Part shown: positions 2,462 through 17,465 of the stretch, piece by piece
Position numbering within the stretch: the first letter of the stretch is position 1
Layout of the letters: each line of letters opens with the position of its first letter
Assembly (NCBI GenBank): GCA_016218155.1
Contig: JACREQ010000069.1
Coordinates: 1 to 64,000, forward strand
Source of the DNA: Bacteroidia bacterium
GTDB lineage: Bacteria; Bacteroidota; Bacteroidia; Bacteroidales; GWA2-32-17
Reading direction: 5' to 3'
DNA: 64,000 nucleotides
Program-made: the position numbers and the translations under genes
The notes under the pieces: generated by a model
What the model saw: only the letters and a program-made list of their open reading frames with translations
Told to the model about the DNA's origin: nothing
Databases searched by the model: none

Positions 2462-3517
2462 ATGGCTAGGAAAATTGTAAATATTGTTATGGTTTTTCTG
2501 ATTATATCAGTTTCTTCATGTAATAAAACAGAGCCAACTGATATTTTACCATACAGGTATGATGTTCCGGTTTTATATTCTGCAGAGAATACTAATTATC
2601 AATTAAGGGAAATAGATTTTAAACTTAAAATTGCTGTTCTTAGAGGTAATAATAAAACCGAAGCAGATATTGAGGAATATACCGGCATACCTGATACTTC
2701 ATTTAAATTTACAGATTATGAGTTTAATAATGGTTGGGTAAGATTTTATCTGAACAGTGTTAGCTATTCTAATGATGTACCTACAACACCTTATTATACT
2801 TCAGTAATGTTAGATCAGAGTTCTTCTCCTGAATCATTTGATATAAACGATAAATATAATGAACGTTTTGAAGCAATTAACGGATATCTTAGAAAACTTA
2901 ATGGAGATAATCAAGTATTGGTGTCTGGTTTTGCAAGAAATGGAAGTCTTTCAGGAAATATAGAATATTGTAACAACGAGCCAATTACTACATGGGATAA
3001 AACAACAGCAAAAAATTTACTCGATTTTACTCATAAGATTGGTGGTACCTCATGTTTGTTTGATGCTTTAAATTCAATGTTGGATAGGTTGATAACAGTA
3101 AATGCTGCAAATAAATCTATTGTTATTCTAATTATGAATAAGGATGACGGATCAAGTTCTTCAGATTTGGAAAGCGTTATTCAGAAAGCAAAAACAAATA
3201 ACATAAAAATAAACCTTATATGGCTTATTGATAATTATGAGAATGTTGATTTTGTTACACTAACACAGTTGCCTTGTCGTACCGGTGGTTTTCTTATTTA
3301 TATGGGAGATATTTATCAAGTATCAACAATTTTTTACGGACTGGACAAACTGCTCTCCAGAAAAGTAAATTATTATAATTTAGATGTTAAACTTGTAATA
3401 GATTCACCAAATTATTTCTTAGACAAGTATCGTAGCGGTGTTAAAATTTATTATCCTAACAGTAAATATTACGGTTGGAGTCATGTGCCATTTATGGTTT
3501 CGAAATATGGAAAATAG
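2462..3517 (+). CDS. Lipoprotein with a von Willebrand factor A domain
   Basis: The ATG at 2462 is preferred to a TTG three codons earlier because it starts directly at the signal peptide. The lipobox is VSSC with Cys20. From about residue 110 the protein has a vWA fold with an apparently intact metal-binding MIDAS: DQSSS (Asp118, Ser120, Ser122), a Thr in GGTS, and an acidic DDGSS loop after a hydrophobic strand. vWA domains bind protein ligands through a divalent metal, so this is probably a surface or periplasmic ligand-binding lipoprotein. It is coupled to the barrel gene upstream and overlaps the next gene by 11 nt. That overlap implies translational coupling with the WD40-caspase protein. 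Confidence 0.7.
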   Translation: MARKIVNIVMVFLIISVSSCNKTEPTDILPYRYDVPVLYSAENTNYQLREIDFKLKIAVLRGNNKTEADIEEYTGIPDTSFKFTDYEFNNGWVRFYLNSVSYSNDVPTTPYYTSVMLDQSSSPESFDINDKYNERFEAINGYLRKLNGDNQVLVSGFARNGSLSGNIEYCNNEPITTWDKTTAKNLLDFTHKIGGTSCLFDALNSMLDRLITVNAANKSIVILIMNKDDGSSSSDLESVIQKAKTNNIKINLIWLIDNYENVDFVTLTQLPCRTGGFLIYMGDIYQVSTIFYGLDKLLSRKVNYYNLDVKLVIDSPNYFLDKYRSGVKIYYPNSKYYGWSHVPFMVSKYGK

Positions 3518-6500
3518 TAAATGGATATTATTGTTTTTATTGCTGTTGTTATTTAATAGCAGTTGGTGCCAGAAATCTGAATTGTCCGTTCAAACAGGTC
3601 ATACATCGATGATTAAAGGACTTTCTTATTCACATGATGGAAAAATACTTGCCAGTGCAGATGGTCAGAATAATATTATTCTATGGGATATGGAAACCGG
3701 TTGCCAGATGGCAAAATTTTATTTTTCCGGTAAAAATAATTCTTATTCAAATATGTGTTTTAATGCTGATGATAATTTACTTATTGTTGGTACAACAGAT
3801 GGAAAAATATTTGGATTTGATTTAATTACATCTGAAATAGTTTTGCAAACTGAAATAATAAATCCTATTAGTGTTATTTGTCCTTCTGAATCACCTGATT
3901 CAATTTTTGTTATTACTAATCAACTGTATTCATATAATCTTAAAAGTAAAAAATTAACAAAACTTAGTGAAAATTATATAGTAAATCTTTTTCTTTCTAA
4001 AAACAAGCAATATTTTGCTTTAGGTAATTTTGGCGAGTTGTATAGTATAGATAACAGTGTGCTGAAAAGAGAGTCGTTTTGTATTGTTAAACCCGAAATT
4101 CTGGAAGAAAGGCAAAAAAGATATGAAATTATTTCGGCCAGAATGGATCAGAAAATTAGTCAGACTACCAAACAGAAAAAAATAAGTAATTATCAGGCAA
4201 GAAAATATTATTCAGGCTCATTTATGACCAGATCTACTATATCCAGAGCAGTAATATCTGAAGCCGGTGACAGAATGTACCTGATTCAGATGGGAAGTCG
4301 AATAGCAGGATACTCAATTACAAGCAAAGAACGATTATTTGTCAGATCGGGGATGTATTTTGATGATTACTTTACTTCAATGGTATTATGCCCAGATAAT
4401 AATTATTTATTGGCAGGTAATACTGATGGTAAAATTTATGTGATTAATAAGGAAAGTGGAAAGCTCGAGAAGTTATTAAAAGAACATAATTCAGAAGTAA
4501 ATAGCTTAGCAATATCACCAAATGGTAAATTCTTTGCTTCGGCAAGCACTGACAGATCAATAATTATCTGGAATAGTTTAACATTAGAGCCTGTAAAAAG
4601 ACTTTATTCAAGGGCTTTCCCAATTACTTCCCTTGATGTTTCGGAAGATGGTAGTAAGCTTGTAATTGGTGATGAGATTGGTTTTATTAAAAGTATTAAT
4701 CTTAATGATGCACTTTTAGGAATTAAATTTATGAAACCTCACAATCAGGAAGTATATGTAATTTCATTTCTAAATAATGATTCATTAGTATTTAGCTCAG
4801 GTAAGGATAACAGAATAATAAAATCTAACATTAATCAGATGTCTGTTATTCAGAAAACTGCTTTTAAGAGACTGTTTAAATTGAACCTGTTTGCATTTAA
4901 TATACTTGAAGCCATTGGTGTTTATATTCCTGAAAGAACTTATTTTAATAAATTTAATATAAAGACTGAAAATCATTTTGAAATAGTTGGAGGAAGATAT
5001 GCTTTCGGAAATGCAAGAAAATATCATTCTATTGAATTTAATATTTCTTTTAATGGAAATAACCTAAAAAAAGAAAAAATAGAAAAACTAAGAAAAATTA
5101 AATATGCTGAAAATTCTACTTGTTTATATGATTCGGCTGCTTCAATAGAAAGTAAAATTGATTTTTATAACAAATTAAACGGACATGCAGATAAAATTAC
5201 AGGATTTAAGACGATTAAAAATAAAAACCTTGTTGTTACATCCAGTCTGGATGCTACTATTAAAATATGGGATTTAAAATCTCATGCCCTTTTATTAACC
5301 TTAATTCCAATTGATAAAAATAAACTGATAAAATTAACTGCCGAAAATTATTATATGGCTCCTAAGTCAGCACTTACTGCTATTGGCTTCAAGTATGGCA
5401 AAGAGTTTTATCCTCCCGAGCAATTTGATGTCAGATTTAACCGACCAGACAAAGTGTTGTCTGTACTTGGCAACTCTGATCCTGAGTTATTACGGGCATA
5501 TGAAATAGCATACAATAAAAGAATTAAAAAGCTTAATTTTAATGATGAAATGCTGAGTGATGAATTTCATGTGCCAACTGTTACAATTACTAATGTTAGC
5601 GAAGAGAACGGAACTAATTCTTCAATTATTAAAGTTAATCTCTCAGTTAATGATACAAAGTATAATCTTAACAGAATAAATATTTTCAATAATGATATTC
5701 CGGTATTTGGTACAAGTGGTATAGAATTAAAAGATAAAAATACCGGTCAGTTTAATTCAACTGTTGAAATTCCTCTAATTCCTGGTAAAAATAAAATTCA
5801 GGTTTCAGGTTTAAACGAAAAAGGAGCTGAATCACTAAAGAAAACTATTGAAATAATAAGAGCCGAATCTAACGAGAAACCAAATTTGTATATTGTTTCT
5901 ATTGGAGTATCAAAGTATACAGACAAACGATTTGATTTAAATTATGCAGCAAAAGATGCAAAAGATGTTGCTAAATTGTTTTCAGAATCAAAAATGAATT
6001 ATGGAAGTGTAATATGTAAAACTTTAACAGATTCTGAGGTAACAAAAGATAATATAGAGAAGTTGAAAGATTTTTTAAAACAGTCAAAGCCAAATGATGT
6101 GGTAATAGTGTTTATTGCAGGTCATGGTATGCTCGACGAGCAGTTTAATTACTATTTTGGAACAAGTGATATTGATTTTAATAATCCTTCGTTAAAAGGA
6201 ATTGAATATGCTGAAATCGAGAATTTGCTAGATGGTATACCTGCAATGAAAAAAATACTTTTTATGGATACCTGTCATTCCGGTGAAGCAGATAAAGAAG
6301 ATCTTGAATTAACTTCTCAAACTGTTGTTGAAACAGGAAATGTGAAGTTCAGAAACGCAGGGGCAGGAGTTAGGAATAAAAAAGCATTTGGTATGTATAA
6401 TACCAGTGAAATGATGAAGGATGTTTTTGCTGATATTCGTAAAGGTACTGGATCTACCATTGTTTCATCAGCAGGTGCAGCAGAGTTTGCATTTGAAGGA

Positions 6501-6701
6501 AAGGACTGGAGTAATGGATTATTTACATATTGTTTAATTAAAGGCATAAAAGATAATGCTGCTGATTTAAATCGCGATAAAAAAATAGTAATTTCCGAGT
6601 TACAGGATTACATTCGAATGAAAGTTACAGAATTATCAAATGGTATGCAGGTTCCAAATGCACGTCTAGAAAATTTAAGTATGGATTTTAGGGTTTGGTA
6701 A
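3507..6701 (+). CDS. Secreted WD40-repeat caspase-family (C14-like) protein
   Basis: I start at the ATG at 3507 (1064 residues). It begins a signal peptide (MENSKWILLFLLLLLF...WCQ) and overlaps the upstream stop by 11 nt; an earlier ATG at 3438 would lie deep inside the vWA gene. Residues about 30-620 hold WD40-type repeats (for example GHTSMIKGLSYSHDG, HNSEVNSLAISPNG, DRSIIIW, DATIKIWD). A beta-rich linker of about 100 residues follows. The caspase-like domain covers about 790-1064, with catalytic His in FIAGHG (His873) and Cys in FMDTCHSG (Cys923). WD40-caspase fusions are known in bacteria, but the targets of secreted ones are not. Both catalytic residues are present, so it should be active. 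The WD40 propeller may sense a ligand or hold a substrate. Confidence 0.85.
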   Translation: MENSKWILLFLLLLLFNSSWCQKSELSVQTGHTSMIKGLSYSHDGKILASADGQNNIILWDMETGCQMAKFYFSGKNNSYSNMCFNADDNLLIVGTTDGKIFGFDLITSEIVLQTEIINPISVICPSESPDSIFVITNQLYSYNLKSKKLTKLSENYIVNLFLSKNKQYFALGNFGELYSIDNSVLKRESFCIVKPEILEERQKRYEIISARMDQKISQTTKQKKISNYQARKYYSGSFMTRSTISRAVISEAGDRMYLIQMGSRIAGYSITSKERLFVRSGMYFDDYFTSMVLCPDNNYLLAGNTDGKIYVINKESGKLEKLLKEHNSEVNSLAISPNGKFFASASTDRSIIIWNSLTLEPVKRLYSRAFPITSLDVSEDGSKLVIGDEIGFIKSINLNDALLGIKFMKPHNQEVYVISFLNNDSLVFSSGKDNRIIKSNINQMSVIQKTAFKRLFKLNLFAFNILEAIGVYIPERTYFNKFNIKTENHFEIVGGRYAFGNARKYHSIEFNISFNGNNLKKEKIEKLRKIKYAENSTCLYDSAASIESKIDFYNKLNGHADKITGFKTIKNKNLVVTSSLDATIKIWDLKSHALLLTLIPIDKNKLIKLTAENYYMAPKSALTAIGFKYGKEFYPPEQFDVRFNRPDKVLSVLGNSDPELLRAYEIAYNKRIKKLNFNDEMLSDEFHVPTVTITNVSEENGTNSSIIKVNLSVNDTKYNLNRINIFNNDIPVFGTSGIELKDKNTGQFNSTVEIPLIPGKNKIQVSGLNEKGAESLKKTIEIIRAESNEKPNLYIVSIGVSKYTDKRFDLNYAAKDAKDVAKLFSESKMNYGSVICKTLTDSEVTKDNIEKLKDFLKQSKPNDVVIVFIAGHGMLDEQFNYYFGTSDIDFNNPSLKGIEYAEIENLLDGIPAMKKILFMDTCHSGEADKEDLELTSQTVVETGNVKFRNAGAGVRNKKAFGMYNTSEMMKDVFADIRKGTGSTIVSSAGAAEFAFEGKDWSNGLFTYCLIKGIKDNAADLNRDKKIVISELQDYIRMKVTELSNGMQVPNARLENLSMDFRVW

Positions 6702-8987: not shown

Positions 8988-9000
8988 ATTTTCTTTTTAC

Positions 9001-9008
9001 CAAATATA
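9001..9008 (-). promoter_or_regulatory. -7 element for the TPR/SpoIIE gene
   Basis: The minus strand reads TATATTTG here, matching TAnnTTTG, 13 nt before the ATG at 8987. No TTG was found at the expected -33 distance, so this is a tentative call. Confidence 0.4.
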
Positions 9009-9240
9009 ATGTTTTTTATGAAAAATAATTCTATATTATGTCATATAAGAGATATTAAAAATCACACTTGGTGTTGCAAGACATAAATAAAATTTAAAAA
9101 GTGACAGTTAATTAGTTTGGAACAATCAAACTCAAAACTTTATATTTTGAATAATTTAGAGTAATTTATTTCTAAAAAAGTCGTTAATAAAAATTAATAT
9201 GAATAAATTAGTTATATATTTATTAATTAAAGAATATTTT

Positions 9241-12200
9241 ATGAATAAAGCATTTTGTCTTATTTTGTCAGTCCTGCTTTTAACACAGTGTATAAACGCA
9301 CAGGTAACAAAAGATGATGTGACTGCAAGTGGTTTTTCTGAAACATTATTATTTGTTAAGGATAATTCACCTGTAAATATTCAGGATTTAGGAATAGATG
9401 TTAAGGTAATAGGTAATATTGCAGTAACAACTTTCGAAATTACATTTGCAAATCCAAACAACAGAGTACTTGAAGGTGAGCTTAATTTTCCTTTAGGTGA
9501 AGGTCAGACTGTAACAAGGTTTGCTATGGATATTAATGGTGTTTTGCGTGAAGCTGTTCCTGTCGAAAAAGAAAAAGGGCAATATGTTTTTGAAGATGTT
9601 ATTCGCCAAAAAGTAGATCCAGGATTACTTGAGAAAACAAAGGGTAATAATTATAAAGCACGTGTATATCCGATACCTGCAAATGGAACAAAACGTATAT
9701 TAATATCTTACGAACAGGAATTAAAACCTGTAAATGGTGGCTATTTATATTTACTTCCATTAGGGTTTAATAAACCAATAGGAAAGTTTTTAGTAAATAT
9801 TGAGGTACTAAAACAATCTATAGCACCCGTTATTGAGAAAAATGAATTAGAGAATTTTTCATTTCAGAAATGGAACGATTCATATAAGGCAAGTGTTATA
9901 AAAGAAAATTTTATAGCATCAGGTCCAATTGCATTTACTGTTCCCGGTGAATCAGGTTCATTAATAACGTTTGCTGAATCAGGAATGAAATCAATAAATC
10001 AGAAATATTTTTATGCTAGTATTAAGCCTGAAATTATTAAAAGAGACAAAAAATTACCAATTGATATTTGCCTTTTTTGGGATGCTTCTTCTTCAAATAA
10101 ATATATTAAATATGATAGAATATTTGAGGTTTTGGATGGATATTTTAAGAAAATTGGTAATACTAAAATTAAGTTTGTAACATTTAGTAACGAAATTCAA
10201 TCTGAAAAGGAATTTCAGGTTATTGCAGGTAATTGGGATGAGCTAAAATCTGTAATTACTAAATTAAATTATGATGGTGGGACTCAATTAGGGTGCTTAA
10301 ATCTTAAAAAATATAATAGTGAAGAATTTATTTTAATTAGTGATGGTATTTCAACTTTTGGCGATAAAGAAATTAAAACTTCAACTGTTCCTGTAATTGT
10401 TATAAATGAGAATCAGTCGGCGGATCATTCATATTTAAAATTTATTGCTTCTTCAACCGGTGGAGTATATCTTAATTTGCTTAAATATAATACAGAACAG
10501 GCATTGAGTGCAATGTTAAATCAACCCTTTCAATTTATTTCTGCAACATTTAATTCTAATGAAATTGAAGAAGTTTATCCTTCAATACTAACACCTGTTA
10601 ATGATGATTTTTCCATTTCGGGACTAATAAAAAGTACAACAGCAACAGTTACTTTAAATTTTGGTTTTGGAAACGAAATTGTAAAATCAGTTCCTGTTAC
10701 TTTAAATATAAATAACACTCAACCTTCAAGTGGTATTGCAGAAAGAATGTGGGCAGTGAAAAAAATAAACGAACTTGATATTCTTTATGATAAAAATAAA
10801 GCTGCTATTTCAGAAGTTGGAAAAAAGTATAGTATTGTTACAAGAAATACCTCGCTTATTATTCTTGATAATCTTGAAGATTATATAAAATATAAAATTG
10901 AGCCACCAACAGATTTACTGAAGGATTACATTGCTACCATTGATAGATCAAAGGAAGAAATAATTGAAAAGCAAAAAAAACAAATTGAAATTGTTGTTAA
11001 TGGTTTTAATCAAAAGAAAGAATGGTGGAACAGAGAGTATAATCCGGCAACTATTGCAAATACTGCATGGATAACTCAAAAGGGCGATAATATTGGAGTA
11101 ACAGGGGGAGTTATAACCGGCACATTATATTCTGCAATGGATAATAATCCTATATCAAATGCTACAATTGAAATTGGTAACACCGGAAATGGAATAGTAA
11201 CTGATAATGAGGGAAAATTTTCACTCGTATTGCCGGCAGGAAGTAATACTATAACATGTAAAGCAAATGAATATGTATCACAAATTGTAAAAGTAAATTC
11301 AAATATTCTGTATATATGGCTTAAAGAGAAATCAATTGCACAGACACAAAAAAATGTAAGATTTACTGCACCTGTTGTCGCTGATACGATGTATATTGAA
11401 GATGCAGAGTCATCAGAAATTGTTCAAAATGAGGAACGACTTCAATTTTTTTCAGTACAGGAAAATATTACAGAAACTAACGGAATTAGTGGAAATGGAA
11501 ACGGAAATTCTAATGCAAATATGAATACAAGTAATATTTTGCGAAAAAATAAATCTGATGTTAAAAGTAGCATTAAAATGGCAGCATGGAATCCTCAAAC
11601 GCCTTATTTGACTAAAATAAAAGCTGCTTTACCTGATAATATGTATAATGTATATATTGTTTTGAAAAATGAATATGGTAATGCTCCATCATTTTATATT
11701 GATGTAGCCGATTATTTTTTCGAGAAAGGAAGAAATAAAGAAGGACTAAGAATATTGTCAAACCTGGCTGAACTTGAAATGCAAAATCATCAGACTTTAA
11801 GAGTTTTGGCACATCGTTTAGAGCAATTAAAAAAGTACAATCTAGCAATCTCAGTATTTGAAGAAATATTGAAGATAAGAAGAGAAGAGCCTCAATCATT
11901 TCGCGATTTGGGATTAGTATATGCACAAGATGGACAATATCAACGTGCAATTGATACTTTGTATAATGTTGTAATAACAGAATGGAATACCCGTTTCCCT
12001 GAAGTAGGAGTTATCGTGGCAAATGAAATAAATGCAATTATTAATGAAGCAGCTAATAAAAACATTTTACTTAATACTGATAAAATAGATAAAAGGCTAT
12101 TAGCTGAAATGCCTGTTGATATTAGAGTTGTTCTTAATTGGGATTCCGATAATTGTGATATTGATTTATGGGTTACAGATCCAAGAAATGAGAAATGTTA

Positions 12201-12492
12201 TTATTCTTATAACTTAACCAGAACAGGTGGCACTATTTCCAAAGATTTTACAGGTGGATACGGACCTGAGGAATTTCAGATTAAAAATGCTTTAAATGGA
12301 AAATATCTTGTTCAGGCAAATTATTATGGCACCAGAACTCAGACAATAACAGGCCCTACAACAATTCAATTGGAGGTGTACACGCATTATATGAATAAAA
12401 CTCAGAAGAAAGAAACTGTAACACTTAGGTTGACTCAGAATAAAGAAGTAATTAAGATAGCAGATGTATTATTTGATAGAAATATAAAATAA
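9241..12492 (+). CDS. Secreted VIT/vWA protein with carboxypeptidase-D-like, TPR and DUF2135 domains
   Basis: The second ATG (9241) starts a clean signal peptide ending CINAQ; an upstream ATG at 9199 adds 14 residues without signal character. The order is as follows. A VIT domain comes first (about 40-190; GELNFPLGEGQ, YPIPANGTKR). A vWA domain with complete MIDAS follows (DASSS, GGTQ, SDG; about 275-420). Next is a carboxypeptidase regulatory-like beta-sandwich (about 615-690; NATIEIG, DNEGKFSL). Then come an Asn/Gly-rich linker, TPR units (about 800-910) and a C-terminal DUF2135-like domain (about 960-1070; DIDLWVTDP). This is the inter-alpha-trypsin-inhibitor heavy chain-like architecture common in Bacteroidota. 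It probably acts as an extracellular or periplasmic binding and assembly protein; the partner is unknown. Confidence 0.85.
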   Translation: MNKAFCLILSVLLLTQCINAQVTKDDVTASGFSETLLFVKDNSPVNIQDLGIDVKVIGNIAVTTFEITFANPNNRVLEGELNFPLGEGQTVTRFAMDINGVLREAVPVEKEKGQYVFEDVIRQKVDPGLLEKTKGNNYKARVYPIPANGTKRILISYEQELKPVNGGYLYLLPLGFNKPIGKFLVNIEVLKQSIAPVIEKNELENFSFQKWNDSYKASVIKENFIASGPIAFTVPGESGSLITFAESGMKSINQKYFYASIKPEIIKRDKKLPIDICLFWDASSSNKYIKYDRIFEVLDGYFKKIGNTKIKFVTFSNEIQSEKEFQVIAGNWDELKSVITKLNYDGGTQLGCLNLKKYNSEEFILISDGISTFGDKEIKTSTVPVIVINENQSADHSYLKFIASSTGGVYLNLLKYNTEQALSAMLNQPFQFISATFNSNEIEEVYPSILTPVNDDFSISGLIKSTTATVTLNFGFGNEIVKSVPVTLNINNTQPSSGIAERMWAVKKINELDILYDKNKAAISEVGKKYSIVTRNTSLIILDNLEDYIKYKIEPPTDLLKDYIATIDRSKEEIIEKQKKQIEIVVNGFNQKKEWWNREYNPATIANTAWITQKGDNIGVTGGVITGTLYSAMDNNPISNATIEIGNTGNGIVTDNEGKFSLVLPAGSNTITCKANEYVSQIVKVNSNILYIWLKEKSIAQTQKNVRFTAPVVADTMYIEDAESSEIVQNEERLQFFSVQENITETNGISGNGNGNSNANMNTSNILRKNKSDVKSSIKMAAWNPQTPYLTKIKAALPDNMYNVYIVLKNEYGNAPSFYIDVADYFFEKGRNKEGLRILSNLAELEMQNHQTLRVLAHRLEQLKKYNLAISVFEEILKIRREEPQSFRDLGLVYAQDGQYQRAIDTLYNVVITEWNTRFPEVGVIVANEINAIINEAANKNILLNTDKIDKRLLAEMPVDIRVVLNWDSDNCDIDLWVTDPRNEKCYYSYNLTRTGGTISKDFTGGYGPEEFQIKNALNGKYLVQANYYGTRTQTITGPTTIQLEVYTHYMNKTQKKETVTLRLTQNKEVIKIADVLFDRNIK

Positions 12493-12521
12493 GTATTTTG
12501 AATGTATTAATTATGTAAGTA

Positions 12522-12938
12522 ATGAATGATATATTTGCCTTTGTTTATAGTATTCTTGAGGGTATGTCAAAAATTACCGGATTAAGTTATAAAGAAATAA
12601 ATATTATTGTTTATTATATTGTTGTACCTTTTGTTTATTTATCTTTATTTGATAAGCTTTTAAAAAATCATTTCTTAAAAATAGGGTTTAGTATTGCTGT
12701 TATTTTATTTTTGATATTTGTTAAAGATTTCAGTCTTTTTTCAAATGATTTATTTGATAAATCTGTAAGGTTTTTACAGTGGTTTGAAATAATTGGATGG
12801 AATTATATTGTAGCATCTGTAATTATTTGTGTTGTAGTTCCATTTTTGATTTTCGCATTACTCTTGTACTTTGTTTATGAATCAAATATTAATTCATTTT
12901 TTAATAAATTTAGAAACAATAATGAAATTAAATATTAA
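12522..12938 (+). CDS. Small integral membrane protein of unknown function
   Basis: I do not recognise this 138-residue protein. It has three hydrophobic helices (about residues 27-45, 52-68 and 90-118) and a short, polar, Asn-rich C-terminal tail. There is no catalytic motif and no signal peptide. The gene lies 29 nt after the VIT/vWA gene and runs directly into the M23/L,D-transpeptidase lipoprotein gene, whose best start (12940) is 1 nt past this stop codon. The coupling suggests it works with that envelope enzyme, perhaps as a membrane partner. That is inference only. Confidence 0.6.
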   Translation: MNDIFAFVYSILEGMSKITGLSYKEINIIVYYIVVPFVYLSLFDKLLKNHFLKIGFSIAVILFLIFVKDFSLFSNDLFDKSVRFLQWFEIIGWNYIVASVIICVVVPFLIFALLLYFVYESNINSFFNKFRNNNEIKY

Positions 12939-12939
12939 T

Positions 12940-14157
12940 ATGAAGTCATATCTGTATGATATTGTACTTGTTGTTATATTTATATCTTGTGGTTTTAATG
13001 AACCCGGTAAGTCAAATGCCATAAAGAATTTAATTAATGATAATGTGCCAGAATTATCCACTGTTGATAATATCTTGGATACTTTAATTGCGGATGGTTT
13101 TGATTTTCCTGTTGGAAATGTTGATGGTAAAGGAAAGTATACATCCATAGCTGATGGAAAAGTTTACGATTCATGGTATATAGCTACAAAATTTGCCGAA
13201 AACTATAGTTTAGGAGTTCATCCCGGAATTGATTTAAATGGAACCGGAGGTGGTAACACAGATCAGGGACAACCTGTGTATACTATTGGTAAAGGTGTTG
13301 TTATAGATTCTGAGAACTTTGGTTCTCCATGGGGTAATGTTGTTTTAATTAAGCATTATTATCTCGAAAACGGAAAAATTATAAGTTGTTTTTCACTTTA
13401 TGCACATCTGGAGGAAATTTTTGTTTCTAAAGGTGATGTGGTTAAAAAACGGACAAAAATAGGAACCATAGGAACTGGAGGGGGGAGTTATCCGGCACAT
13501 CTTCATCTCGAAATCAGAAAAGATAAAATGAAAGATTATGAAACTACTTTCTGGCCTGGTTCAAATTCAAAAAATACAGAATGGGTAAAAGAATACTACG
13601 AAGCTCCTGATGAATTTATCAATTCACACAGAGTATTAACTTGTCCATATAAAGAAGATAGAATTATAGTTGCAGTAAAAAATAAATACAAACTATTTTA
13701 TTACGAAAAAGGTGAACTTAAAAATGAATATGTAATTGCCCTAAGCCAAAATCCAAATGGACCAAAGGAGAAAGAAGGTGATTTAAAAATGCCCGAAGGT
13801 GAGTATTTTATTTTTGGAAAACAGAAAGGTCCGTTTTATGGTGACTTTTCAGAGTATCTTGGAAATGAGTTGTTACGAATTAGTTATCCAAATACATTTG
13901 ATGCTGAAAAAGCTTATAGCAATGGAAATATAACAAAAGAAATAAGAGATAAAATAACATCTGCAAATAAAAAACAAATTGCACCACCACAAAGTACATT
14001 TTTAGGTGGTGGAATTGTTATACATGGCTGGTTTGGAGACTGGATAGCAGATGGTAATCAAAACCTTACATGGGGTTGTATTAGTATGCACAATTCTGAT
14101 TTGGAAAAATTCTACGATATAGTTCAATTAAAAACTAAAATAATTATTTTACCATAA
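12940..14157 (+). CDS. Lipoprotein fusing an M23 endopeptidase with an L,D-transpeptidase (YkuD) domain
   Basis: The ATG at 12940 is chosen because it begins a lipoprotein signal with lipobox FISC; two earlier ATGs at 12871 and 12922 lie inside the previous gene. The N-terminal half (about 70-215) is an M23/LytM metallopeptidase with its zinc residues: His94 and Asp98 in HPGID, and HLHLE at 187-191. The C-terminal half (about 235-405) is a YkuD domain of the YafK type (NPxGPKEKEGD, MPEGEY), with IHG (His362) and catalytic Cys380 in WGCISM. M23 enzymes cut peptide cross-links. YkuD enzymes make 3-3 links or act on lipoprotein-peptidoglycan links (YafK/DpaA). Both active sites look complete, so one protein could cut and re-join the wall. 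Its neighbours are a small membrane protein and another lipoprotein. Confidence 0.88.
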   Translation: MKSYLYDIVLVVIFISCGFNEPGKSNAIKNLINDNVPELSTVDNILDTLIADGFDFPVGNVDGKGKYTSIADGKVYDSWYIATKFAENYSLGVHPGIDLNGTGGGNTDQGQPVYTIGKGVVIDSENFGSPWGNVVLIKHYYLENGKIISCFSLYAHLEEIFVSKGDVVKKRTKIGTIGTGGGSYPAHLHLEIRKDKMKDYETTFWPGSNSKNTEWVKEYYEAPDEFINSHRVLTCPYKEDRIIVAVKNKYKLFYYEKGELKNEYVIALSQNPNGPKEKEGDLKMPEGEYFIFGKQKGPFYGDFSEYLGNELLRISYPNTFDAEKAYSNGNITKEIRDKITSANKKQIAPPQSTFLGGGIVIHGWFGDWIADGNQNLTWGCISMHNSDLEKFYDIVQLKTKIIILP

Positions 14158-14169
14158 TACTAGATAGTT

Positions 14170-15012
14170 ATGAAAAAACTATTTCTATTTGCCTTTACTA
14201 TTATTAATTGCGTTGGTTGTAATTCGCAAACTCCAAATTTTGTAAATAAACAAATGGAGGAAAACATTATTAATGTTCCTATACATAAGAATGTAAGTCA
14301 ATTTGATACGACAACAAAAACTATTCATGTGTTTGTTGCATTATGTGATAATAAATATCAGGGTATAGTACCTGTGCCCGAGAAAATAGGAAATGGCAAG
14401 GATCTTAATAATAATTTATATTGGGGTTGTGGGTATGGAATCAGATCTTTTTTTAAAAACAGTAAAGAGTGGAAACTTATTAGAAAATATAAAGTGGATA
14501 CTTTAATTCTGGAAAGATTGGTTTTTAAAAATGTCACAAAGAATATTTATTTAGTTGCCGATGCATATGATGGACAATATATTAAAACCTGTACTGAAGA
14601 CTTTTTTTATAGTTGTTCTGGCCAAACAAAAGATACATTAATTATAAAAAATATTATTATAGGTATATATGGTAATTCAAAACTAGTTTCATATATAGGA
14701 CATGATGGATTAATGGATTTTCAGCTTGACAAAACATTTGAAAATAGTGATGGTAAACAACGTGATTGTATAATACTTGCATGTATAAGTAAAAGCTATT
14801 TTGCAAATCATTTAAAAGAAGCTAAGGCAAATCCATTAGTTTGGACTACTGGTTTAATGTGTCCTGAAGCATATACATTGCATGATGCATTAACTGCTTA
14901 CATTAATAATGAGTCAAGAGAAAGCATTAGAACTAAAGCTGCTTTAGCTTATTCTAAATATCAAAAATGCAGTGAGAAAGCAGCTAGGAATTTATTAGTA
15001 ACTGGTTGGTAA
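14170..15012 (+). CDS. Lipoprotein of unknown family with a possible caspase-fold (clan CD) His/Cys pair
   Basis: I do not recognise a named family. The lipobox is CVGC (Cys17). Residues 170-240 carry two motifs typical in form of clan CD cysteine peptidases: a hydrophobic strand followed by His-containing GHDG (His178), and a hydrophobic strand followed by Ala-Cys in IILACISKSYF (Cys205). A conserved-looking WTTGLM...EAYTL stretch follows. The 27-residue His-Cys spacing is shorter than in caspases or legumain (about 40), so the assignment is tentative. A pair of Cys in LYWGCGYG and several others could instead be structural. The gene is 12 nt after the M23/L,D-transpeptidase gene, surely one operon, suggesting a role at the cell wall. 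Confidence 0.6.
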   Translation: MKKLFLFAFTIINCVGCNSQTPNFVNKQMEENIINVPIHKNVSQFDTTTKTIHVFVALCDNKYQGIVPVPEKIGNGKDLNNNLYWGCGYGIRSFFKNSKEWKLIRKYKVDTLILERLVFKNVTKNIYLVADAYDGQYIKTCTEDFFYSCSGQTKDTLIIKNIIIGIYGNSKLVSYIGHDGLMDFQLDKTFENSDGKQRDCIILACISKSYFANHLKEAKANPLVWTTGLMCPEAYTLHDALTAYINNESRESIRTKAALAYSKYQKCSEKAARNLLVTGW

Positions 15013-15101
15013 AAAAATATGAAATGAAAATTGCAATTATAGAAAAGAAAAAAATATTTACAATACGTATAATAAATAGAGTGAGTATGAAAAACTAAAT
15101 A

Positions 15102-17465
15102 TCAATAATTAACTTTTCCTAACACCTCAAATTTAATTTTAACAGAAATTCCATTTTCATCAATAAGCATAAGCCTATGTTTACCTGCTGAAGGATTTAA
15201 GGATATTTGATGAATTTCTTTTGTTTCACCAATATACTCTTCATCCATATGCCAGTATATTTTAGTGTTGTTATTTCTGTGAGTTGCTTCAAAAACTGTA
15301 CGACCCATTGTGCCATCAATCTCAACCGGGACATATATTTTACTATTTGGTTTTGGATATAATATTGCAATTGCCTTGTCAGAAATTTTTGCAAGGCACT
15401 CTGGTTTAAATTCAGGTAATGCTTTATAATTAGGGTGATTTGTTTTGTAGTATTTCTCGATTAATGGAGGTAGAATAAACCATGCAATATTTTTCATGTT
15501 ATAAATGGATTCACAATCGCTGTCAACTCTGTATTTACCGTTTTTAGTAAGATGCACTATTTGATGATATGGGCAAGCTGTTGTATTTAAGCATGTTTTT
15601 GGCATTTGTTTAGTTTCTTTTTTTTCGCATAAATCAGATGCACGGTAGCCACTTTCACTACAAATAGTTATTTCACATTGTTCCGAACGAGGTTCAATAA
15701 ACCAGCTTTCTGATTTTGGTAATTGTGAAAACAAATCAAATAACAATGGAGCAGCGGCTTTTATTCCTGTTAAACCAGGTCTTCCTTCGCCATCAGCATT
15801 GCCAATCCAGACAGAAACTACGTAGTCAGGTGTAATACCTGTAGCCCATGCATCGCGAAAACCAAAGCTGGTTCCTGTTTTCCATGCAATTTTTTGTGCA
15901 GATGTAAATGCTCTCCAGTTTCCATCATCATCGGGTCTGTTAACTTCTACCATTGCTTCAAATGTACTGTAAATGGATGCTGCATTATTTTTTTTATAAG
16001 AATAATTACATTCTTGCTTTTCTGTTTTTGACGATTCTAAAATATATTTTAATGGTTTTATTTTGTTATATTTTAACTCCTGAGCCATTTGTGTATATAT
16101 TTTATTTAAATCGTAAAGCTTTGCTTCTGCGCCTCCGAGAATCAAAGATAAGCCATAATGTCTGGCTGGTTTATTGAGCGTTGTTAAACCAAAGTTTTTT
16201 AAATCGAGATAGAATTTTTCAAGTCCATACTGATTTAATAAATTTACCATTGGTATATTTAAGCTTCTTGACAATGCAGAGTTTGCTGGTACTGCACCAT
16301 CATATTGTTGTGAAAAATTTTTTGGCGAAAAACTTCCATAATGTGACGGAATATCTGGTAACAGCATTGTTGGTGTAATAATACCATCCTCAAGGCATTT
16401 TTCATAAAGTAAGGGTTTTAATATGCTTCCTGTACTTCTTGGTGCAACTATACAATCCACATCACTGCTGTTTTCAATATCTGAATTTTTAGTATTACCA
16501 ACATAAGCCAGAATTTCTCCTGTTCTAACAGAACTGATTATTACAGCACCATTGTAAATTTTATTTTCTTTTAATAAGTCGTTATGAGCTTGTAATTGCT
16601 GAATTGCCTTTATTTGAATGTTGTTATCAATTGTGCTTTTTATAGTTTTTCCTGCATATCCGTTTTTTATTAATTTTTCCAATAAGTGTGGAGCTGACTG
16701 TGGCAGCTTTAATGGTTTATCTGGTAATGGCTCTGTTAAGGCTAATTGGTAAGTTGTTAAATCTATTTTTTTTCTATTGTATAATCTTTTTAATAATCTG
16801 TTTCGTTTATTTAAAAGCCTGTCATGATTTTTTCCCGGATAAATTAATCCTGGCGCGTTTGGTAAAACAGCTAAAGTTGCACTCTCTGCCCAGCTTAATG
16901 AATTTGAACTTTTTCCATAATATCTCCACGAAGCTGCCTCTAGTCCCACAACATTATTCCCAAATGGTGCGTGGGAAGCATAATATATTAAAATTTCTTT
17001 TTTACTGTATCTTATTTCCATTCTGGTTGCTAGAATCATTTCCAGAATTTTTTCATAGTAAGTACGGGGTGGATTTTTTCTCATTATTCTGGCTAACTGC
17101 ATTGTTAAGGTACTTCCGCCGCTTACAACTTTTTTATGTTTAAAATTTTGAATAAAAGCTCTTCCAATTCCATTTATGCTTATTCCATAATGACTATAAA
17201 ATGTTCTGTCCTCAAATTCAATTAAACATATTTTAAATTTATTAGGTACGCTATCGGCAGGACTAAATCGCCACTGCCCGTCAGAGGCTATTTTAGCACC
17301 CAATAAAACTCCGTTTCTATCTAAAAGCACAGTTGATGTGCTATCGTTAAAAAGTTTTTCAGGTAGGCATTGAGCATACCAAATAAGGAATATCAATAAA
17401 AATAAGATTAATAATCTGATGCTCCATTTTTTTATTAATCTCCATTGAATTTTTAATTTTTTCAT
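15102..17465 (-). CDS. pbpC: Penicillin-binding protein 1C (bifunctional glycosyltransferase/transpeptidase)
   Basis: This 787-residue class A PBP has an N-terminal membrane anchor (about 15-32). The GT51 glycosyltransferase has its catalytic Glu in EDRTFYSHYG (Glu85) and the GGSTLTMQL motif. The transpeptidase shows all three motifs: SILK (Ser347, Lys350), SLN (401-403) and KTGT (529-532). The C-terminal part from about 690 resembles the BiPBP_C domain that distinguishes PBP1C from other class A enzymes. It polymerises lipid II at the periplasmic face; the transpeptidase role of PBP1C is debated. In many bacteria pbpC adjoins the alpha-2-macroglobulin gene. Here that gene lies on the same strand but 4.7 kb upstream, beyond a two-component pair and a RAYT. 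Confidence 0.95.
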   Translation of the reverse strand: MKKLKIQWRLIKKWSIRLLILFLLIFLIWYAQCLPEKLFNDSTSTVLLDRNGVLLGAKIASDGQWRFSPADSVPNKFKICLIEFEDRTFYSHYGISINGIGRAFIQNFKHKKVVSGGSTLTMQLARIMRKNPPRTYYEKILEMILATRMEIRYSKKEILIYYASHAPFGNNVVGLEAASWRYYGKSSNSLSWAESATLAVLPNAPGLIYPGKNHDRLLNKRNRLLKRLYNRKKIDLTTYQLALTEPLPDKPLKLPQSAPHLLEKLIKNGYAGKTIKSTIDNNIQIKAIQQLQAHNDLLKENKIYNGAVIISSVRTGEILAYVGNTKNSDIENSSDVDCIVAPRSTGSILKPLLYEKCLEDGIITPTMLLPDIPSHYGSFSPKNFSQQYDGAVPANSALSRSLNIPMVNLLNQYGLEKFYLDLKNFGLTTLNKPARHYGLSLILGGAEAKLYDLNKIYTQMAQELKYNKIKPLKYILESSKTEKQECNYSYKKNNAASIYSTFEAMVEVNRPDDDGNWRAFTSAQKIAWKTGTSFGFRDAWATGITPDYVVSVWIGNADGEGRPGLTGIKAAAPLLFDLFSQLPKSESWFIEPRSEQCEITICSESGYRASDLCEKKETKQMPKTCLNTTACPYHQIVHLTKNGKYRVDSDCESIYNMKNIAWFILPPLIEKYYKTNHPNYKALPEFKPECLAKISDKAIAILYPKPNSKIYVPVEIDGTMGRTVFEATHRNNNTKIYWHMDEEYIGETKEIHQISLNPSAGKHRLMLIDENGISVKIKFEVLGKVNY

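Follow-up and report, generated by a model that had tools for sequence, protein, structure and literature searches.

A single gene of a Bacteroidia bacterium (assembly GCA_016218155.1, 4.78 Mb in 113 contigs) probably encodes a membrane-anchored double peptidoglycan hydrolase. The DNA analysed, hereafter the window, covers the opening 64 kb of the 241,612-base contig JACREQ010000069.1, and the gene (12940-14157, plus strand, ATG start) encodes a lipoprotein-like protein of 405 residues in which an M23 metallopeptidase domain is fused to a YkuD domain. Sequence comparison and a structural model support, with moderate confidence, a reading centred on this gene alone, in which the M23 half cuts 4-3 cross-links and the YkuD half trims or detaches stem peptides. 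It lies between two further plus-strand genes, P1 (12522-12938, 138 amino acids) and P3 (14170-15012, 280 amino acids). An earlier note on this DNA, made from the letters alone, suggested that the three genes could be a dedicated wall-remodelling or lipoprotein-tethering unit, with a fusion protein that might cut and re-link the wall; the fusion and its two neighbours of no known family stand, the conserved trio does not, and the re-linking is improbable.

In Helicobacter pylori and Campylobacter jejuni, wall trimming and helical shape are described, in the parts of the literature consulted, as the work of separate M23 and YkuD proteins. The domain families of the fusion are known. In the literature searched, no account of their joining, or of the probable double-hydrolase role, came to light: no M23-YkuD fusion is described in the titles or abstract openings of the open-licence papers covered, and 'M23' does not occur in the available part of a 2025 review (PMC12729407). 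If the double-hydrolase reading is true, cross-link cutting and stem trimming, which are split between proteins in the known shape systems, would in several phyla be tied together by a shared anchor, and the fusion would offer a compact enzyme for direct tests of how the two steps are ordered and coupled.

Two hydrolase-like domains on one predicted anchor

The fusion protein begins with a signal peptide and a lipobox-like cysteine, C17 (12940-12993), recognised by eye and from the N-termini of relatives, with an unusual Phe at position -3, in keeping with the single lipid anchor proposed earlier. A similar N-terminal cysteine is seen by eye in many relatives, and some, for example those at loci L128, L143 and L146, have none within the first 80 residues. 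Pfam places Peptidase_M23, of the LytM type, at residues 94-196 (13219-13527; E 2.4e-18) and YkuD at residues 241-403 (13660-14148; E 8.4e-17), both above the cut-off. The YkuD domain is the last in the protein, and in both the Pfam result and the model no NTF2-like domain follows it.

Conservation was assessed in an alignment (A4) of 34 sequences, comprising the fusion of this locus and 33 relatives, with one of two apparently near identical loci left out (L141, the counterpart of L140). The HxxxD...HxH set of the M23 half is kept in nearly all members (H94, H156, H187 and H189 each in 32/34, D98 in 31/34), the last two histidines lying in an HLHLE motif at residues 187-191. The YkuD catalytic pair is retained to a similar degree, with H362 in 33 and C380 in 32 of the 34, and W364 is invariant. 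The residues singled out in the earlier note (H94, D98, HLHLE, H362 and C380) are thus all where it placed them and are conserved in the family. An AlphaFold2 model built with the family alignment has two confident domains (predicted local distance difference test score, pLDDT, 90.7; predicted TM-score, pTM, 0.86); both residue sets are intact, and neither domain appears degenerate. When the model was superposed on known structures, the M23 half matched ShyA (Z 17.0) and Csd3 (Z 16.1). Profile match and catalytic residues together place the two halves in the M23 (LytM type) and YkuD families. The M23 fold and the metal-binding and catalytic motif are shared with the LytM/M23 DD-endopeptidases ShyA, DipM and H. 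pylori Csd1 and Csd3; unlike the fusion, these enzymes have no YkuD domain in the aligned parts of their structures.

In the proposed mechanism the protein would be held by a lipid in many members, the cysteines being judged by eye. The M23 half would cut cross-links between D-alanine (D-Ala) at position 4 and meso-diaminopimelic acid (mDAP) at position 3, leaving tetrapeptide stems. Tetrapeptides are the substrate trimmed by Csd6-type enzymes, according to the part of PMC8938487 consulted. The YkuD half may then attack mDAP at its L-centre, in the same stems or in ones nearby. As an LD-carboxypeptidase it would take off the terminal D-Ala and so convert tetrapeptides to tripeptides; as a DpaA-like amidase it would release a protein bound to mDAP. 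The steps of the two halves would be coupled in one chain, and LD-transpeptidases could not use a trimmed stem as donor, which makes the predicted outcome cut-and-trim and not cut-and-re-link. P1 and P3 would probably be accessory genes that share a transcription unit with the fusion by chance in this genome.

The branch of the YkuD half

The second residue after the catalytic cysteine (C+2) is informative for YkuD proteins. In the parts of the sources consulted, LD-transpeptidases are described as having Arg there, Ala or Asn being the usual residue in DpaA-like proteins (PMC8263019), and the residue is Ala in Csd6 and Pgp2 and Val in Bd1075 (PMC8938487). In the Escherichia coli sequences compared, which cover LdtA, LdtB, LdtC, LdtE and DpaA and leave LdtD outside, Arg occupies the position in the four Ldt proteins and Ala in DpaA. 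The fusion family has Ser in 21, Val in 11, Thr in one and Pro in one of its 34 aligned members, and Arg in none (S382 in the fusion itself). LdtA, LdtB, LdtC and LdtE therefore share with the fusion the YkuD fold and the His/Cys pair but differ from it in this Arg, the mark of an LD-transpeptidase.

Other landmarks point to the same branch. A lysine of the mDAP pocket is described as Lys83 in DpaA and Lys107 in Csd6 (PMC10653827, seen in part), and K276 of the fusion aligns with it and is present in 33/34 members. The YPN..D motif (residues 316-318 and D321) is found in all 34 and falls within the region that aligns to Csd6 and DpaA. The same part of PMC10653827 describes a helix in loop 3 for LD-carboxypeptidases and DpaA and not for LD-transpeptidases; in the model, helices 319-327 and 333-344 sit between strands 310-314 and 360-362, giving the long, helix-bearing loop 3 of the Csd6/Pgp2/DpaA type. 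In profile searches of the PDB the YkuD side matched Csd6 (E 5.8e-9), Pgp2 (9.1e-8), Bd1075 (3.4e-7) and then Bacillus subtilis YkuD (5.9e-5). Against the five E. coli proteins a profile without the aberrant relative L155 scored 27.3 bits with DpaA, 18.3 with LdtA, 17.6 with LdtC, 16.6 with LdtB and 13.1 with LdtE, and the sole NCBIfam match on the YkuD side was LdtF_DpaA_YafK, at an E value (8.2e-5) far under that family's cut-off.

Because Arg is missing at C+2, the mDAP-binding lysine and YPN..D are kept, and the Csd6/Pgp2/Bd1075 and DpaA profile matches lead, assignment of the YkuD half to the Csd6/Pgp2/Bd1075/DpaA hydrolytic branch is favoured over assignment to the transpeptidases. The automatic label "LD-transpeptidase" is, judged from these residues, probably wrong for such fusions, and the cutting and re-linking put forward in the earlier note is disfavoured.

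The fusion also departs from these enzymes. The LD-carboxypeptidases Csd6 of H. pylori, Pgp2 of C. jejuni and Bd1075 of Bdellovibrio bacteriovorus share with it the YkuD fold and the lack of Arg at C+2, Csd6 also has the mDAP-pocket lysine and YPN..D, and the three are its top PDB sequence matches on the YkuD side. They are described, in the parts of PMC4599014 and PMC8938487 consulted, as carrying a C-terminal NTF2-like domain, which the fusion lacks; the fusion has in turn an added M23 domain and no equivalent of Csd6 Trp158. DpaA of E. coli (YafK/LdtF) resembles the fusion in a GPK lysine, in (F/Y)PN..D and in having no Arg at C+2, but has no M23 partner and has Ala at C+2 where the fusion family has mostly Ser or Val.

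Several observations weigh against the double-hydrolase reading. The position of Csd6 Trp158 is Gly in 31 of the 34 fusions and never Trp, and that of Csd6 Tyr133 is Leu in 15, Tyr in 11, Phe in seven and Glu in one, so the aromatic D-Ala pocket of a Csd6-like LD-carboxypeptidase is not kept and the carboxypeptidase step is uncertain. The matches to Csd6 and DpaA fall mostly on the first half of the YkuD domain and those to B. subtilis YkuD and LdtA, LdtB, LdtC and LdtE on the second, and the scores for the two groups are therefore not strictly comparable. Structural superposition gives a tie between Csd6 (Z 15.9), Pgp2 (15.4) and YkuD of B. subtilis (15.2), with Bd1075 at 13.8, and fold likeness alone does not split the branches. 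Finally, some relatives have altered catalytic residues: M23 residues are lost in L151 and L153 and partly altered in L154, the YkuD Cys is changed in L149, and the YkuD motifs, Cys included, are altered in L155. Neither activity is therefore required in every member. The fusions of L151 (184-1356) and L153 (5875-6993) are Verrucomicrobia relatives in which the YkuD His and Cys remain despite the loss of M23 residues.

Within the double-hydrolase reading, the YkuD half could be a DpaA-like amidase that frees outer-membrane proteins bound to mDAP, in which case the fusion would remove tethers and open the wall as well. This is possible, if on the unlikely side. DpaA is the top scorer among the five E. 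coli proteins, its Lys83 equivalent is retained, the fusion has no equivalent of Csd6 Trp158, and Bacteroidetes, Acidobacteria and Deltaproteobacteria are reported to have DpaA-like proteins (PMC8263019, in the part consulted). However, the scores against DpaA are low and the top PDB sequence match on this side is Csd6. The tether removal raised as an option in the earlier note is possible if the YkuD half is indeed DpaA-like.

A true LD-transpeptidase, with which the fusion would cut 4-3 cross-links and then form 3-3 links or attach a protein, is considered improbable. The intact His/Cys pair in a YkuD fold, the likeness to B. subtilis YkuD (Z 15.2) and the Pfam name of the domain, LD-transpeptidase catalytic domain, speak for it, but Arg is found at C+2 in none of the 34 members, the Csd6/DpaA-type Lys and YPN..D are retained, and loop 3 of the model bears helices.

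Distribution and history of the fusion

The M23-YkuD fusion is, by sequence, a real family with a patchy distribution in several bacterial phyla. An earlier scan of named genomes with the fusion protein as single query gave no relatives; a scan with an alignment of eight sequences as query gave 81 loci, of which the best 80 were examined. One open reading frame (ORF) runs across both domains, to residue 403-405, in 34/80 loci, and eight further loci (L132, L136, L144, L145, L150 and L156-L158) hold a partial or broken copy, or one not recognised as an ORF. The match at the other 38 is chiefly to the M23 half. The fusion records are titled, under the submitters' names, Bacteroidetes, Verrucomicrobia, Acidobacteria and Deltaproteobacteria. 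Two fusion-bearing records of metagenome-assembled genomes (L126 and L133) are titled Akkermansia muciniphila, a species label judged to be probably wrong.

Closer to home, eight full-length fusions were found in a class set of 395 genomes, that of this genome and seven others with 47-54% identity; six of the named loci (L119, L122, L123, L125, L129 and L138) are on the same contigs as these class-set matches. Among 80 genomes consisting of this one and 79 relatives, the matches listed include a full-length fusion in this genome only, the rest being single-domain M23 or YkuD stretches. Four genus mates, one of them 74% complete, have no full-length fusion, P1 or P3.

In domain trees, made with FastTree only, the fused domains cluster in both the M23 and the YkuD tree, with three unfused exceptions, the YkuD-only L077 and L078 and the M23-only L159, which are nested among fused domains with weak support (0.30 and 0.46). 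These trees suggest a single fusion event followed by losses. The position of the YkuD-only proteins of L077 (6286-6969) and L078 (7192-7902), in a tree of weak support, suggests that their M23 half was lost. A phage origin was also considered and rejected: the fusion has no match in phage records or viral contigs, and P3 has none in viral contigs.

The neighbouring genes P1 and P3

The gaps of 1 nt between P1 and the fusion and 12 nt between the fusion and P3, and the common plus-strand orientation, were confirmed from the ORF list and the sequence. Upstream, a gene for a VIT-domain protein (9199-12492, plus strand; Pfam VIT, DUF2135 and CarbopepD_reg_2) ends 29 nt before P1. Co-transcription of P1, the fusion and P3, possibly with the VIT gene as a fourth plus-strand gene, is plausible from the sequence because no terminator-like site was found in 9000-15300, where 1.7 were expected from shuffled sequences.

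Tight spacing and common orientation would also suit a conserved operon dedicated to wall remodelling, as the earlier note proposed, but this is extremely improbable, since neither the trio nor any pair of its genes recurs: none was found in the 79 relatives searched, P1 and P3 are not encoded in the flanks of 87 fusion-type regions (80 named loci and seven overlapping class-set regions, with flanks reaching at most some 6-7 kb and shorter where a contig ends), the fusion and P1 are not in 48 P3 regions, and the fusion and P3 are not in eight P1 regions. One M23-only match was seen among the P3 regions (L241, 37.5% identity, about 5 kb from P3). Clustering of neighbouring genes gave no partner common to more than four P3 regions, the ORF filter having missed P3 itself in L223 and L239, and the largest cluster around the fusion, over 42 loci and the present one, spans six loci. 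P1 and P3 are thus probably chance neighbours of the fusion.

P3 belongs to a widespread secreted family which, by sequence comparison, has no convincing relative in the libraries searched. It has no Pfam match above the cut-off and no NCBIfam match, in line with the earlier view that neither P1 nor P3 is of a recognised family; its profile has no match in the PDB up to E 10, and the family as a whole has scattered weak Pfam matches in at most three of 36 members (best E 0.0027), which were disregarded. At this locus P3 is lipoprotein-like, with a lipobox-like C17 recognised by eye. An alignment (A3) of 36 sequences, which omits L089 as the same gene as L034 and leaves some matches out, has H53, H178 and E233 in 36/36 and C59 and C205 in 35/36. 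The relative on an Agarilytica plasmid (L040, 7827-8708), a divergent gammaproteobacterial sequence, has no C205. P3 is present in six of the 80 genomes of the relatives set and in 60 of the 395 class genomes, this one included. In the class to which G494, a Chloracidobacterium record, belongs, 25 of 162 genomes have it; that class is presumably Blastocatellia, going by the title of L147. Plasmids recorded for Persicobacter, Bernardetia and Agarilytica carry P3 too. One genome has a tandem P3 pair (L033, 8349-10105), and in another the P3 relative is split into two overlapping ORFs (L036, 5942-6843).

The GH(D/N)GL and AC.S motifs of P3 suggested a likeness to caspase-like proteins. A caspase-like (clan CD) peptidase, whose His and Cys at the ends of successive strands would be H178 and C205, found no support in a comparison with the C14 family: hhalign against a Peptidase_C14 profile gave a probability of 0.05 on a scale of 0-100, within the 0.03-0.07 of six shuffled controls. 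The C14 profile was built from 24 domains of relatives, after rows under 150 amino acids and L269 and L286 had been dropped. A fold predicted from the single P3 sequence had a pLDDT of 31 and was set aside.

Genomes of two phyla tend to carry P3 together with the fusion, an association for which genome size is a partial confounder. In the class set of 395 genomes, with this genome excluded, P3 is found in six of the seven other fusion genomes and in 53/387 without the fusion (Fisher, p 5.6e-5); in the 162-genome acidobacterial class it is found in 8/12 and 17/150, respectively (p 3.6e-5), one of the twelve, G502, having a fusion that is truncated with an internal stop; and of 39 genomes that have a fusion locus, six of these loci being partial or broken, 26 carry P3, a set from which L140, L157 and L158 were left out since their accession prefixes match other included loci. 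These genome sets overlap, the counts were read by eye from match lists, and kinship is uncontrolled. A shared envelope process to which both the fusion and P3 contribute, their genes adjacent here but mostly apart on other chromosomes, and in which P3 would act with the hydrolase or be regulated by it, is unlikely. The raw counts suit such a link, but P3 is more frequent in large genomes and the contrast shrinks among acidobacterial genomes of at least 5 Mb (8/12 vs 10/29, the 29 being a lower bound; p 0.087), nine of 19 genomes that have the M23 half alone contain P3 as well, and P3 is in none of the 87 fusion-type regions. More unlikely still, though marginally less so than a transpeptidase, is the wider proposal of a cross-phylum family that cuts and trims in a single polypeptide, making cross-link removal irreversible for LD-transpeptidases, and that acts with P3 as a new secreted family of His/Cys hydrolases tracking the fusion.

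P1 is a hydrophobic protein, judged by eye to be probably an integral membrane protein, with no Pfam family above the cut-off and no NCBIfam match. It is present in three of the 80 genomes of the relatives set and in seven of the 395 class genomes, this genome included each time. In the 80-genome set the P1 carriers and P3 carriers other than this genome do not overlap. Relatives of P1 are patchy, and unlinked to the fusion or P3 elsewhere.

Downstream, convergent with P3, lies a gene for penicillin-binding protein 1C (15102-17465, minus strand; TIGR02073, E 1.4e-208). No relatives of the VIT gene, P1, the fusion or P3 were found near its relatives in the four regions examined, and relatives 43-50% identical are present in genus and family mates. 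A further ORF of 1087 amino acids (3438-6701, plus strand), about 6 kb upstream of the trio, has a caspase-type Peptidase_C14 domain (match 5901-6680; E 2.7e-17).

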